DNA of 63,685 nucleotides from Bacteroidetes bacterium CG12_big_fil_rev_8_21_14_0_65_60_17 (GCA_002787815.1 PCUY01000038.1:1-63685); one strand, 5' to 3'; shown: positions 16,466 through 21,548, numbered from the stretch's first letter. Translations and numbers: made by a program. Notes: generated by a model not told the origin, from the letters alone.

Positions 16466-16918
16466 ATGGGTCAGCAGCAACTTCTTCTCCTCGTGCTCGG
16501 AATCGTGATCGTCGGCCTGGCCGTCGTTGTCGGTATCCAGGCATTCTCCGAAAACATGAAAAAGGCCAACGCCGATGCGCTCGTGAACGACGCCGTCCGT
16601 GTTGCATCTGAAATTCAGGCATGGAAGCTCAAGCCAGCCGCATTCGGTGGTGGCGCCGACGAGACAGGCTTCGCGAATTTAACGCTGGCGAAGCTTGGCT
16701 ATGACACAGCTGACGCCAACAACGGTGCTTGCGCAGCTGGCGAAATCAAAAACGTGAATGGCTGCATTGGAATCAGCGGTACGCCAGGTGCAACCGTTGT
16801 ACTACTGGCCAAGAGCACTCCTGACAGTGACTTGGACAACCAGGTACAGCTAACGATTTCAAACACATCCTCGTCTGGTATCGCAACAGTTGTCTCCACG
16901 GTGGATGACGCATCGTAA
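16466..16918 (+). CDS. Major type IV pilin-like protein (MGQQQ class)
   Basis: 150 residues. The N-terminus is MGQQQLLLLVLGIVIVGLAVVVGI: a two-residue leader ending in Gly, then three Gln and a long hydrophobic helix. This is a minimal prepilin layout, but the usual Glu at mature position 5 is Leu. A helical AFSENMKKANADALVNDAVRVASEIQAW follows, then a GGGADETGF loop and a Ser/Thr/Asn-rich beta domain with Cys89 and Cys100 that could form a disulfide. Sec export, cleavage by a prepilin peptidase and polymerisation are inferred. It has its own strong ribosome site and its own terminator, unlike the downstream assembly genes, which fits the most abundant subunit. Confidence 0.72.
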   Translation: MGQQQLLLLVLGIVIVGLAVVVGIQAFSENMKKANADALVNDAVRVASEIQAWKLKPAAFGGGADETGFANLTLAKLGYDTADANNGACAAGEIKNVNGCIGISGTPGATVVLLAKSTPDSDLDNQVQLTISNTSSSGIATVVSTVDDAS

Positions 16919-16955
16919 TCAGGATGATCGACTGGCGGACTAACAGTTCGTTATG

Positions 16956-16991
16956 AAAAAAGGGGCGGCGCGGAAGCGCCGCCCCTTTTTT
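16956..16991 (+). terminator. Strong Rho-independent terminator after the first pilin
   Basis: A perfect 10-base-pair stem of GGGGCGGCGC (16962-16971) and GCGCCGCCCC (16976-16985) with a GGAA tetraloop, flanked by six A and six T. The symmetric A and T runs could let it work in both directions. It separates the first pilin from the second pilin and assembly genes, so downstream genes rely on read-through or a second promoter. Confidence 0.9.
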
Positions 16992-17083
16992 CATGTTTGC
17001 GTTTTCGGGTCGGGAAACGGTTAAGCAGCGGCGGCTACTGCCGATACATGAAGTGTCGACAACCCCTCCAACGGTAATTATCC

Positions 17084-17494
17084 ATGGGTCAGCAACAACT
17101 GCTTCTGCTTGTCTTCGGCGTCATCATCGTCGGCATCGCGATCATCGCTGGCATCAATGTATATGTGGTCAACTTTGACCAGGCGCTCGTGGACAACATC
17201 GTGAACCGCAATCTTGAGATTGCCAACTCGGCTGTGTTCTACAAGACCAAAATGGATCCGTACAACGGCGGAAACATGTCCTATGAATTGCTCGGCGACA
17301 GTGGACTGGAGACGCTCAGCATGAGCAGCACGACCAACTTCGGCACGTTTGCCATCACGAACGCCACGGAAACCACGCTGGAAATTACCGGCATCGGCCT
17401 GCGCAATCCGGACATCGGTGTGCGGACCTACATCAGCGGATACGGGATAGACTCGAGCCGCGTCAGCTACGTGGGCGACATCACGATTGAATAG
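17084..17494 (+). CDS. Second type IV pilin-like protein (MGQQQ class)
   Basis: 136 residues. The first 24 residues, MGQQQLLLLVFGVIIVGIAI and onwards, are nearly the same as in the upstream pilin, again with no Glu at position 5. The rest differs: FDQALVDNIVNRNLEIANSAVFYKTKM, then a Thr/Asn-rich beta-strand region (FGTFAITNATETTLEITGIG) and no Cys. The ribosome site is weak compared with the first pilin. It is followed after 18 bases by the GspF-like gene. A minor or initiating pilin is plausible. It seems to be an old duplication in which only the assembly helix stayed conserved. Confidence 0.7.
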   Translation: MGQQQLLLLVFGVIIVGIAIIAGINVYVVNFDQALVDNIVNRNLEIANSAVFYKTKMDPYNGGNMSYELLGDSGLETLSMSSTTNFGTFAITNATETTLEITGIGLRNPDIGVRTYISGYGIDSSRVSYVGDITIE

Positions 17495-17512
17495 AGGCAG
17501 GGAGAGACCACC

Positions 17513-18871
17513 ATGGCCGTAAAGGAATTCAGATTCACGGGAGTCAATGGAGCCGGGCAGCCGGTGCAGGGGACCGTGTTTGCCGGCAGCTCGAAATCGG
17601 CGCGCAAGCGGGTCGATTCGCTCGGTGAGCGCCATGGATTCAGGCCGCAACGGATGGAGCAGCGGCAGACCTTCATGTACAAGGTCCGCCACGTGAACGG
17701 CAACGTAATCAAAGGAGAGCAGAAGGCATTCTCGGAAGAAGAGCTGCGGGCGGCGCTGTCCAAAATGGGCCTGCAGGTAATAAAAATCCAAAAAAAGCTG
17801 CTGGATTTCCAGAAGAAACCTCCGCAGCAGGATCTGATCATGTTTGTCCGGTTGTCGGCCAATCTGCTCAAGGAAAAACTTCCCTTCGATGAAGTGCTCA
17901 ACCTGCTTGTCAACGACATCAGTTCAAACAGTCTCAAACAGGTGGTCCGTGACCTGAACGGCGACCTGAAGGGCGGCATGGAAGCGCAGCAGGCCTTCAT
18001 GAAGCAGCAGCACATGCTGGGCAAGTTCACGGCATACATGCTGGGTATTGCCTCGCAGACGGGCAACATGTCCGAGATCTACGAGGCGACAGCGCGCTTC
18101 CTGGAGCGGCAGAACGAGTTCAAGAAGAGCGTAAGGAGCGCCATGATCACGCCGGCCATCACGATGATCGTGCTTATTGCGGCGTTCGTCTGGTACATCT
18201 GGGTCATTTTTCCGGAGACGGCCGGGCTTTTCGAGTCATTCAATATGACGCTACCGCCCATGACGACCGCAACGCTCGCTTTTTCCAAGTGGATGGATGC
18301 GAACTATATCTGGCTGATTGGCCTATCCATGCTTTCTGTTGGCTCGGTCGTGGCCTTTGCCAAATCCACCCGCGGAACGTTCCTGATTCACCGCTTCATG
18401 ATCCGAATACCGGTCATTGGATCACTCCTGCACAAGTTGAACATAGAAATCTTCTGCCGCGTGTTCGCCGTGTTGTACTCGGGCAGCGGCGACAACATCT
18501 CTGTTATCCGGATTGCTGCCGAGGCATCGGGCAACAAATACATGGAGCACCGGATCAAGAACATCACCATACCCATGATGATGGCCCAGGGTGTGGACCT
18601 GGTCAAGGCCATGGAAGCCAGCAACGTTTTCACGTCCATGGCGCTCGCCCGCTTCCGCAGTGGATCCGAAACGGGAAATGTTCGTGGAGCCGCCCGGCAG
18701 ATGGCCGACTACTATGAAAATGAGACGTCACTCAAGTTGACGTCGACGGTCGAGATGATTCAGACGGGCGTAGCCATGGTGATTACCGTGGCCATTCTCG
18801 CACTGACTGTCATCTCGTCCGAGCTTGCCCTGGTCTCACCCTCGAGCGTAGATATGATGGGAGGAAACTGA
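17513..18871 (+). CDS. GspF/PilC-like inner-membrane platform protein with duplicated N-terminal module
   Basis: 452 residues. The two T2SSF domains are seen at about 115-240 (LIMFVRLSANLLKEKLPFDEVLNLL) and 300-430 (EIFCRVFAVLYSGSGDNISVIRIAAEASGNKYMEHRI). Membrane helices lie near 213-238 (AMITPAITMIVLIAAFVWYIWVIF), 263-285 and 422-442. The small leader module (F-x-Y/F ... G-x-x-x-x-G ... A-x-S/L) occurs twice, at about 4-44 (EFRFTGVNGAGQPVQGTV) and 50-90 (FMYKVRHVNGNVIKGEQKAF); ordinary PilC has one. It should organise the pilin assembly site with the ATPase encoded 1 base downstream. No retraction ATPase gene is nearby. Confidence 0.85.
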   Translation: MAVKEFRFTGVNGAGQPVQGTVFAGSSKSARKRVDSLGERHGFRPQRMEQRQTFMYKVRHVNGNVIKGEQKAFSEEELRAALSKMGLQVIKIQKKLLDFQKKPPQQDLIMFVRLSANLLKEKLPFDEVLNLLVNDISSNSLKQVVRDLNGDLKGGMEAQQAFMKQQHMLGKFTAYMLGIASQTGNMSEIYEATARFLERQNEFKKSVRSAMITPAITMIVLIAAFVWYIWVIFPETAGLFESFNMTLPPMTTATLAFSKWMDANYIWLIGLSMLSVGSVVAFAKSTRGTFLIHRFMIRIPVIGSLLHKLNIEIFCRVFAVLYSGSGDNISVIRIAAEASGNKYMEHRIKNITIPMMMAQGVDLVKAMEASNVFTSMALARFRSGSETGNVRGAARQMADYYENETSLKLTSTVEMIQTGVAMVITVAILALTVISSELALVSPSSVDMMGGN

Positions 18872-18872
18872 T

Positions 18873-21548
18873 ATGAAAGCACTTTTCGGAGACAAAGGCA
18901 GCAGCAGACGTTCAGGCGACAGGCGGCCACAGGCGCGGCACGAAATGCCGCCGCAGGTCGACGCATCCATCCTGGGTGATATCCTGAATGACCTGACCGA
19001 TTTGACGGTCGACGAATGGAACCAGGTGCTGGAGGATACTGAGGGCCCGGCCGGTCATGAAGCCCCGGTCTATACCATTCGTGACATCTACGGAAGTGTG
19101 CCGGATGACGATGAGCCCCTCATGCCAGGGCCCGAAGCCGATATGGAGCCCGATGCTGTTTCTGATCCTGATGTACAGATCGATTCGCCCATTTCCGGGG
19201 TTATCAGGGACGAGCTTTCGCTGAAGCTGCTGCAGGCCGAGATCGTGAACACGACACAGCTGTTCGATGCCATACGGCTGCGGGAGGAGGGTGAAGAGCT
19301 CTGGCGGGCGCTCTGCCGCCTCGAATCGACGCCGTCGGAACGTATTGCCGAAGAAGCAGCCCTTTTCCATGGGTATCGGTTGGAAGCCGTGCTTGGCGAC
19401 AGACCGCAGCGGGCGTTTATCGATGATCTTTTTTCGCGGGTAGATGCAGCGGATGCCGCCCGCCTCATCGATGCCGGCCTGTTGCCGCTCGAAATGAGGG
19501 AGGGCAACCTGATTGTCGGATCGTCCGATCCGACGGCACCCGGGGCAGAGGCAGCGCTCATGGCGTTTCCGGTATCTGCGGAGTGTGTTTATGTGTCGCC
19601 AGAACAGCTCTCGGAGCCACTTGACCGCGTGCGGCTCCGCCTGTCGTTTGAATCGGAGGCTACCAGCGGGCATGACGTGGAATTGGATACCGTAGAGGAA
19701 GCCGACGTATCGCCTTCGCCACCCCCGCGTCCGGTATCCTCGTCGGAAGTTGAAAAAACCATTGCGCGTGACCGCGTCGTGAAACGTCTCCTTGCCGATG
19801 GCATGGTAGACGAAGCATCGGTCAGCCAGGCTGTGGCCGTGCACAAGTCCGAAGGCGAACGGGATGCGCTGTGGCGCGTCCTGGCCGAACTGAAATCCGT
19901 ATCCCGCGAAATGGTCTACGGCAAGGCGGCGTCTGTGTACGCGTTCAAGGAAGAAGAACTGACCGAGGGCCGGCCCGATGCCGACTTCGTGAAGTTGACC
20001 ATGGAGACGCTGGCCGAGGAGCATCGGGAGGAAATGCTCGAAATGCTGCTCGTTCCTTTTGAACACGAGCTGGACATGGAGACGGGGGCCGGACGCATTA
20101 TTTTCGTGACGCCCGACCCGACGCGCCCCGAGGTCAACAAGTTGCTTCATACACTCGACGTGGGCCGATTCGAGCTCCGGTATGTGCCAGAATCGCAGAT
20201 CATCCGGCTGCTCGACGAACTTTTCCCGCGCAAGAACGAGTTCCTCGAGCGCATTACGAAGGAGACCGAGGCATTCGACCTCGGCATGACGTACGAGGAA
20301 GAGGGCGAAAGCGGTCTCGACGAGGATGCGTTGGAGGCGGAAATGAGCCGTTCGAAGCTCATCAACCTGTTCGAGGCATCGCTCGTGGAAGCCGTCCGTG
20401 CGGGCGCATCGGATATCCACATGTATCCGAACCAGAACCGGCAGGTGGAAATCCATTTCCGCACCGACGGGCGCCTGAAGAAGTGGCATACGGAAGACAA
20501 GGTGCATCCGGAAGCCTTTCTGGCGGTCGTGAAGGACAATGCCACGAACGTGGATCGCTTTGAGCGCGATATGGCCCAGGATGGCTTCATCCAGCGCGAT
20601 ATCGACGGCGCGCTCATCCGCTTCCGCGTGAGTATCCTACCCATTGCCACGGCCAACCAGGAGGTGCGCGCCGAAAGCATTGTCATCCGTATTCTCGACG
20701 ATCGCAAGGTGCTCACCGACATCCGCAAGCTCGGCATGCTTGACGTGGCTCTGGAGCGTTTCAACAAGGCCATTCGTCAGCCACACGGAATGGTCATTCT
20801 GACGGGTCCAACCGGATCCGGCAAGTCAACAACGCTGGTCGCGGCGCTTCACCAGGTGGTGACGCCTGAGGTCAACGTCCTGACGGTCGAAGATCCGGTC
20901 GAGTATATCATCAAAGGCGTGCGCCAGATCAAGCTCAGCCACAAACTGGATCTGGAGGGGGCACTCCGCGCCATACTCCGGCACGACCCGGACGTTGTCA
21001 TGGTGGGTGAGATGCGCGACCGCGCCACAGCCGAACTGGCCATCAAACTGGCCAACACGGGACACCTCACCTTCTCGACGCTGCATACGAACGATGCCCC
21101 GGCCGCTGTATCGCGTCTCTACAAAATGGGTATTGAGCCTTTCCTGATTGCGTACGCCATCAATCTGGTCGTGGCGCAGCGCCTCATCCGCGAAGTCTGC
21201 AGCGAGTGCCGGATTGAAGACACGAATCCGGACCGGGTGCTGCTCCGCAACCTCGGCTTCACGGAGGATGAACTGGACACAACTACGTTCTACAAGGCGG
21301 GATGCAACACGTCCTGCAGCCGCTGCGGCGGAAGCGGGTACAAGGGCCGCCGGGCCGTCTGTGAGACGCTGTACTTCTCGCAGGGCATCCGGCACATCAT
21401 CGCGGAATCCGGGAATTCCATTGATGAGGATGCCATCCGGAAGCTGGCGATCGAAGAAGGCATGCTGACGCTCGGCGATTCGGCCCGCGAACTCATGAAA
21501 CTGGGCCTGACGACCGCCGAGGAAATGATCCGCATGACGGCGACCTGA
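18873..21548 (+). CDS. GspE/PilB-like assembly ATPase with two MshEN-type N-domains
   Basis: 891 residues, clearly longer than usual PilB (about 570). A low-complexity acidic N-terminus (1-105) precedes two MshEN-like domains at about 110-255 (LLQAEIVNTTQLFDAIRLREEG) and 300-450 (RVVKRLLADGMVDEASVSQAV). The catalytic core starts at about 490 (INLFEASLVEAVRAGASDIHMYP). Walker A is GPTGSGKS at 645-652, the Asp box is EDPVEY, Walker B is DPDVVMVGEMRD at 705-716, and the His box is STLHTND. A zinc-binding set C776-x2-C779, C811, C815, C818 follows. It should power pilin polymerisation. The gene ends 12 bases before the convergent aminotransferase stop. No secretin, PilM-PilP or prepilin peptidase genes accompany it. 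Confidence 0.9.
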   Translation: MKALFGDKGSSRRSGDRRPQARHEMPPQVDASILGDILNDLTDLTVDEWNQVLEDTEGPAGHEAPVYTIRDIYGSVPDDDEPLMPGPEADMEPDAVSDPDVQIDSPISGVIRDELSLKLLQAEIVNTTQLFDAIRLREEGEELWRALCRLESTPSERIAEEAALFHGYRLEAVLGDRPQRAFIDDLFSRVDAADAARLIDAGLLPLEMREGNLIVGSSDPTAPGAEAALMAFPVSAECVYVSPEQLSEPLDRVRLRLSFESEATSGHDVELDTVEEADVSPSPPPRPVSSSEVEKTIARDRVVKRLLADGMVDEASVSQAVAVHKSEGERDALWRVLAELKSVSREMVYGKAASVYAFKEEELTEGRPDADFVKLTMETLAEEHREEMLEMLLVPFEHELDMETGAGRIIFVTPDPTRPEVNKLLHTLDVGRFELRYVPESQIIRLLDELFPRKNEFLERITKETEAFDLGMTYEEEGESGLDEDALEAEMSRSKLINLFEASLVEAVRAGASDIHMYPNQNRQVEIHFRTDGRLKKWHTEDKVHPEAFLAVVKDNATNVDRFERDMAQDGFIQRDIDGALIRFRVSILPIATANQEVRAESIVIRILDDRKVLTDIRKLGMLDVALERFNKAIRQPHGMVILTGPTGSGKSTTLVAALHQVVTPEVNVLTVEDPVEYIIKGVRQIKLSHKLDLEGALRAILRHDPDVVMVGEMRDRATAELAIKLANTGHLTFSTLHTNDAPAAVSRLYKMGIEPFLIAYAINLVVAQRLIREVCSECRIEDTNPDRVLLRNLGFTEDELDTTTFYKAGCNTSCSRCGGSGYKGRRAVCETLYFSQGIRHIIAESGNSIDEDAIRKLAIEEGMLTLGDSARELMKLGLTTAEEMIRMTAT

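Follow-up and report, generated by a model that had tools for sequence, protein, structure and literature searches.

Our analysis indicates that Rhodothermia and related classes probably make a retractile type IV pilus (T4P) from pilins that are produced ready-mature, with no need of a prepilin peptidase. The peptidase has hitherto been regarded as indispensable, and most of the many Bacteroidota with genes for a near-complete retractable T4P of leaderless pilins have no recognisable gene for it. The cassette that we describe lies at positions 16466-21548 of a 63,685-nucleotide stretch of DNA (the window) and would be the major-pilin, platform and assembly-motor part of such a pilus, in a distinct lineage of the Bacteroidota as delimited in GTDB. 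Gene content, linkage, start-codon constraint and pilin folds were computed, and no A24 peptidase is detectable.

Four open reading frames make up the cassette (Table 1): two adjacent proteins starting with MGQQQLLLL, a PilC/GspF-like protein and a PilB-like protein. The preliminary description of this DNA had reported that the first two share this start and a hydrophobic stretch and then diverge; they are indeed 42% identical across their first 64 residues and divergent beyond. It had also described tightly spaced GspF/PilC-like and GspE/PilB-like genes behind them, and the gaps are only 18 bases (pilin 2 to the T2SSF gene) and 1 base (T2SSF to the T2SSE gene). A second pilin is kept at the same place in relatives, and neither MGQQQ protein of the window matched any Pfam family at E<=1. 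The Pfam T2SSF match of the PilC-like protein falls in two domains. The PilB-like protein matches Pfam T2SSE (E 1.4e-96) and, in two stretches, MshEN (E 9e-9), and reaches E 3e-119 with TIGR02538 (type_IV_pilB), under the curated equivalog cut-off. The hairpin between pilin 1 and the rest is strong and probably allows separate high expression of pilin 1, a role that is inferred; Rfam gave no match. By eye, the PilC-like protein might contain a duplication at its N-terminus, but the median z in a shuffle test was only 0.8 and we do not claim one. Contamination or an assembly artefact can be ruled out, as the same cassette occurs in many relatives and in single-contig genomes.

Table 1. Features of the pilus cassette, in window coordinates
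Feature	Position	Strand	Remarks
Pilin 1, probable major pilin	16466..16918	+	150 aa; MGQQQLLLL; leader at most Met or Met-Gly
Terminator-like hairpin	16952..16995	+	20 pairs, 11 of them G-C; between pilin 1 and the rest
Pilin 2	17084..17494	+	136 aa; MGQQQLLLL; divergent C-terminal domain
PilC/GspF-like inner-membrane platform	17513..18871	+	452 aa; Pfam T2SSF, E 1.9e-27
PilB-like assembly ATPase	18873..21548	+	891 aa; T2SSE, MshEN; Walker A GPTGSGKS

A secretin, PilM-P, PilT and a prepilin peptidase had all been noted as missing. This is correct at the locus, but genome-wide it is correct only for the peptidase, which remains undetected. In the genome containing the window (G000, a 2.9-Mb assembly of 90 contigs, 95.5% complete), a PilT-family gene, two genes that we call c25 and c24, and the secretin gene lie together on contig C40 (L095). 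In relatives, the cassette continues into c26, c33 and c27 (variable), the PilT-family ATPase, c25, c24 and a PilQ-like secretin, and outside the class the gene order is pilins-PilC-PilB-PilT-c25-c24-secretin (L209-L212). Against TIGR01420 (cut-off 319.1), the PilT-family ATPase scores 314.1 bits in the window's own genome and 323.5 and 327.7 (L209) in relatives. The secretin matches Pfam Secretin at E 8e-26, and its best NCBIfam match is TIGR02515 (PilQ; E 9e-24, below cut-off). Two of the components expected of a type IVa pilus, a PilT retraction ATPase and a PilQ secretin, are thus in place. The c25 profile matches solved PilN with its C-terminal part (E 5e-10) and, ahead of that part, weakly matches PilM (E 0.54), which makes a fusion of PilM and PilN probable for c25. 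For c24, the profile matches solved PilO (E 2e-4); this protein appears to be a PilO-PilP fusion whose conserved C-terminal domain occupies the place expected of PilP, PilP being assigned by position only. Overall, the preliminary description underestimated the system, which comes near to a complete T4P. A search for PilM via PF11104 returned one protein of ~430 aa per genome, matching over the same short segment and present in cassette-free genomes too; it is probably FtsA and was rejected.

Contig C40 breaks off within c27, where the gene encodes a lysine-serine repeat. The genes c33 and c26 adjoin c27 in relatives, and neither these two nor the N-terminal part of c27 was found in the window's assembly. 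In the window's own genus, c27 carries a long lysine-serine repeat (L095:8621-8966; L200:9104-10648), and a lipoprotein with a subtilase domain (Peptidase_S8) lies directly upstream of the PilT homologue (L095:7084-8472), with a lipoprotein of similar size at the same place in L200 (L200:7560-8897). The family also keeps another PilB-like ATPase (L094:7874-10377, on G000 contig C14; L113:4911-7753), which matches MshEN weakly and stands alone, distant from any pilus gene.

By sequence, none of the major pilins significantly matches a known pilin, and for pilin 1 Foldseek alone gave no significant structural match. The AlphaFold model of pilin 1, built from a 54-sequence alignment (pLDDT 91.7), has one helix (residues 3-55) followed by a four-stranded sheet. 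When Foldseek's 1000 best candidates were realigned with VIA-align, type IV pilins and pseudopilins took places 1 to 18, with Z falling from 8.9 to 5.0 and the next entry at 4.4; the best structural matches are major and minor T4 pilins. For the minor pilin c33, the model (pLDDT 80.7) matches PilW/GspJ-type pseudopilins, GspJ/XcpW/EpsJ among them, at Z 13.7 to 9.6, the next unrelated structure being at 4.9. A pilin fold, i.e., a long N-terminal helix plus an antiparallel sheet, is therefore present in pilin 1 and c33, by prediction only. Assignment of c26 and c27 as minor pilins rests on gene order and an N-terminal hydrophobic stretch alone, and on the same grounds they are probably PilV/GspI- and PilX/GspK-like, respectively. 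Searching the minor-pilin profiles against PDB sequences gave nothing useful.

Known pilin leaders are 6-26 residues long (PMC4471445). In the window, an in-frame stop lies 7 codons (pilin 1) and 3 codons (pilin 2) upstream of the ATG with no start between, so this ATG is the only possible start of either gene, and that of pilin 1 is preceded by a strong Shine-Dalgarno sequence, AAAGGAGGT. The same constraint is seen across the family. An in-frame stop precedes any alternative start in 122 of 127 distinct MGQQQ major pilins, and an upstream start is impossible in all 28 minor pilins (c26 8/8, c33 7/7, c27 13/13); in these sequences a normal leader from an alternative upstream start is excluded. 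A class III signal peptide, with a leader of 6-26 residues ending in Gly, is accordingly not found, as the leader can be at most ~1-3 residues. Since the first five residues of the MGQQQ pilins were set by the search pattern, their invariance is no evidence, but the helix past them is also strongly conserved and hydrophobic. None of the 127 major pilins has a charged residue before position 22, so the lack of the usual Glu at mature position 5 (Glu5), first noted for the two pilins of the window, extends to the major pilins as a group. In c33, the structural alignment puts a conserved Asp at the position of Glu5. By the same kind of alignment, the c33 gene begins 1 residue before the mature N-terminus of canonical pilins and the pilin 1 gene ~2-3 residues before it, which leaves an uncertainty of one or two residues in the register of pilin 1. 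Beside an MGQQQ pilin, one genome (G118; L208:8553-8924) has a leaderless pilin-like protein that starts with MANKEIIIII and has Glu at precursor position 5.

Judging by its named relatives, the window's assembly belongs to the order Rhodothermales. Of 60 relatives, 48 contain a degenerate MGQQQ pattern, whereas the reversed pattern, used as a control, is absent from all of them; this is far beyond chance. In a phylum-wide sample of 394 genomes, 128 have an MGQQQ protein, and 126 of these also have a T2SSF protein, compared to 54 of the 266 genomes without MGQQQ (Fisher p 3e-56, in counts that ignore relatedness). The preliminary description had made its reading depend on linkage of MGQQQ proteins to GspE/GspF in other genomes, and this test is passed: an MGQQQ start lies no more than 3 kb upstream on the same strand for 59 of 64 cassette-type GspF genes, as opposed to 0 of 34 other GspF genes, and 4 of the 5 exceptions have truncated flanks. 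In a tree, the cassette GspFs form one group with other MGQQQ-linked GspFs (SH-aLRT 100), and canonical GspFs lie apart even where one genome has both; because the cassette label was assigned by similarity, this clustering is partly expected.

Salinibacter ruber DSM 13855 carries the system, and a plasmid of this strain (35,505 bases) encodes two MGQQQ pilins annotated as hypothetical. MGQQQ pilins without assembly genes occur on S. ruber plasmids (L102:4992-6019, NC_007678.1; NC_014030.1; NC_014157.1), and plasmid-borne pilins of this kind are possibly exchangeable alternative pilins. A Wzy_C (O-antigen ligase) protein encoded between pilin and PilC in S. ruber and two other closed genomes (L096:5943-7463, L097:5934-7448 and L100:5243-6799; E 1e-14 to 1e-18) is a candidate pilin O-glycosyltransferase.

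No Peptidase_A24 (PF01478) was detected in G000, and only 5 of the 60 relatives have one above cut-off. In the phylum sample, 113 of the 128 MGQQQ genomes had no match to this family, among them single-contig genomes such as G028, G032, G036, G175, G233 and G336. All of the remaining 15 carry an additional canonical GspF, mostly on the contig of the peptidase; among GspF-bearing genomes without MGQQQ, the peptidase is present in 36 of 54. We also built a lineage-specific profile from the phylum's own peptidases, including a divergent form of 160 residues found beside the Flavobacterium-type pseudopilin. This profile rescued three genomes missed by Pfam, but where an MGQQQ genome had no Pfam match it gave no peptidase either (best E 0.0046). 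Five of 10 Flavobacterium-type genomes also yielded nothing with it, and a very divergent A24 therefore remains possible. A prepilin peptidase in the genome, as usual for type IV filaments, is thus lacking as far as can be detected, with the proviso that very divergent forms could be missed, and its absence is a property of the system, not of the window alone. Cleavage after Gly2, as assumed previously, would on sequence grounds have no findable peptidase behind it. The only prepilin peptidase of the genus is on an 8291-base contig (L107; G002 contig C1), with canonical T4P/T2SS-type genes; the G002 assembly has 6% contamination, and L107 may be foreign or a second, acquired system.

Ordinarily, the membrane-held prepilin has a charged leader, PilD removes the leader and often methylates the new N-terminus, and Glu5 helps the docking of the pilin after leader removal. 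In the system described here, the pilins would be translated with a leader of ~1-3 residues (the initiator Met or Met-Gly) and be essentially mature already; since the genes start at the mature end, the sequences themselves require no dedicated peptidase. Such pilins may enter the inner membrane in the N-in orientation, without a charged tail in the cytoplasm. Where residue 2 is small, Met1 would probably be trimmed by methionine aminopeptidase; from the specificity of this enzyme, removal is expected before Gly2 in the major pilins and c27, and Met should stay on most c33 proteins, whose second residue is large. PilB and PilC could then assemble the pilins into a filament, with the three leaderless minor pilins as primer. 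This filament would pass through the complex of PilMN, PilOP and secretin, and PilT would retract it, retraction being inferred from the presence of PilT. We incline, with some reserve, to the view that the whole branch does without prepilin processing, the peptidase having been lost or never used, and that an uncharged Gly-Gln-Gln-Gln cap replaces the processed N-terminus and Glu5; in the major pilins, this QQQ cap may take over from the usual arrangement of N-terminal amine and Glu5. There is no experiment, and neither a filament nor the N-terminus has been seen; that the pilins assemble, that the filament retracts, that Met is removed, what QQQ does and where the mature protein truly starts are all inferences. 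The earlier pilus or pseudopilus reading thus gains from the predicted fold of pilin 1 and the linkage to PilC, but polymerisation is still unproven.

The same pilus could instead have a short Met-Gly (or Met) leader that is cut by an undetected divergent A24 peptidase or by an unrelated enzyme, leaving a Gln N-terminus able to cyclise. All MGQQQ pilins have Gly ahead of the presumed mature residue, as canonical prepilins do, although the pattern selected for this; the A24 proteins of the phylum can be very divergent, with 160-residue forms at Pfam E 1e-5 and some missed; and the structural register of pilin 1 permits 2-3 extra residues. We nevertheless consider an undetected enzyme unlikely, given that no A24 candidate appeared in MGQQQ genomes even with the phylum-specific profile, that the compact operons have no unexplained conserved membrane protein, and that the minor pilins c33 and c26 keep no Gly, leaving only Met to cut.

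It is less plausible still, and in our assessment very unlikely, that the genes encode a T2SS-like secretion machine with a short periplasmic pseudopilus piston and no surface pilus. The PilM-PilN fusion resembles GspL, the minor pilins are in GspI-J-K-like order with c33 matching GspJ/XcpW/EpsJ, and the secretin also resembles GspD. But a PilT-family retraction ATPase is encoded directly in the operon, the best secretin score is to PilQ, pilin 1 is closest to major and minor T4 pilins, and many genomes have extra MGQQQ pilins elsewhere, including on S. ruber plasmids, like alternative pilins. That the MGQQQ proteins are membrane-anchored, non-polymerising neighbours of T4P genes is hardly credible: the missing experimental filament, sequence match to known pilins and Glu5 would all fit such an anchor, but it would have to be reconciled with the predicted pilin fold, the strongly conserved hydrophobic helix, the strict linkage to PilC and operons that hold no other candidate major pilin.

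Type IV pilins are defined by a class III signal peptide that prepilin peptidase cleaves, and reviews count the enzyme among the core components of the superfamily (PMC4471445, PMC6668835). In Synechocystis, a pilD mutant shows no photoautotrophic growth and one suppressor alters the PilA1 signal peptide, which indicates that loss of PilD is harmful where leaders exist (PMC8546353). If a leaderless, ready-mature pilin is the correct reading, then leader, processing, N-methylation and Glu5 are dispensable in a widespread retractile T4P, and the question of what the leader is for becomes testable, and testable in a named cultured strain, since the system is present in S. ruber DSM 13855. That these pilins are annotated as hypothetical is explained too, as they cannot be found by searching for class III signal peptides. 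In the open-access literature searched, we found no report of leaderless or peptidase-independent pilins, of MGQQQ, or of pili in these lineages, which is not proof that none exists.

Several known systems share parts of this one. MSHA pilus loci also have no prepilin peptidase gene, but a peptidase belonging to another system is always present in MSHA genomes (PMC6668835), whereas most MGQQQ genomes lack one altogether. Glu5 is often absent from archaeal type IV pili, and Nanoarchaeota were the one phylum without a detected prepilin peptidase in a 2014 survey (PMC4471445); unlike archaeal pili and the nanoarchaeotal filament genes, the MGQQQ system is bacterial, has PilT and a secretin, and misses the leader itself. 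The Flavobacterium/Cytophaga-type T2SS (CHU_3195-3201; PMC5553014) likewise combines GspE, GspF, a secretin and pseudopilins in Bacteroidota, but its leaders are ordinary and Glu5 is present, a small Peptidase_A24 gene of its own adjoins the pseudopilin, and its GspF lies elsewhere in the tree; the same phylum's T2SS thus has an A24 protein of its own (PMC5553014). More generally, type II secretion, with GspO-matured pseudopilins, GspC/GspD and no PilT, is contradicted by the PilT-family gene in the operon and by the lack of an A24 match and of leaders. A Tad pilus would have TadA/CpaF with separate TadB and TadC, and here there is one two-domain GspF, with ATPases that score best as PilB and PilT and far below TadA. 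The closest system is the type IVa pilus (PilA/B/C/D/M/N/O/P/Q/T), like which the MGQQQ system would work and whose core proteins are homologous to its own. The MGQQQ system has in common with it PilB, PilC, the PilT family, a PilQ-like secretin, PilN- and PilO-related proteins, the pilin fold and three minor pilins. It differs in that PilM-PilN and PilO-PilP appear fused, in a PilC of ~450 rather than ~375 residues, and in that the 6-26-residue leader and, in the major pilins, Glu5 are absent and no prepilin peptidase is detectable. As leader, Glu5 and genomic peptidase set it apart from an ordinary type IVa pilus, we describe the MGQQQ system as a variant.
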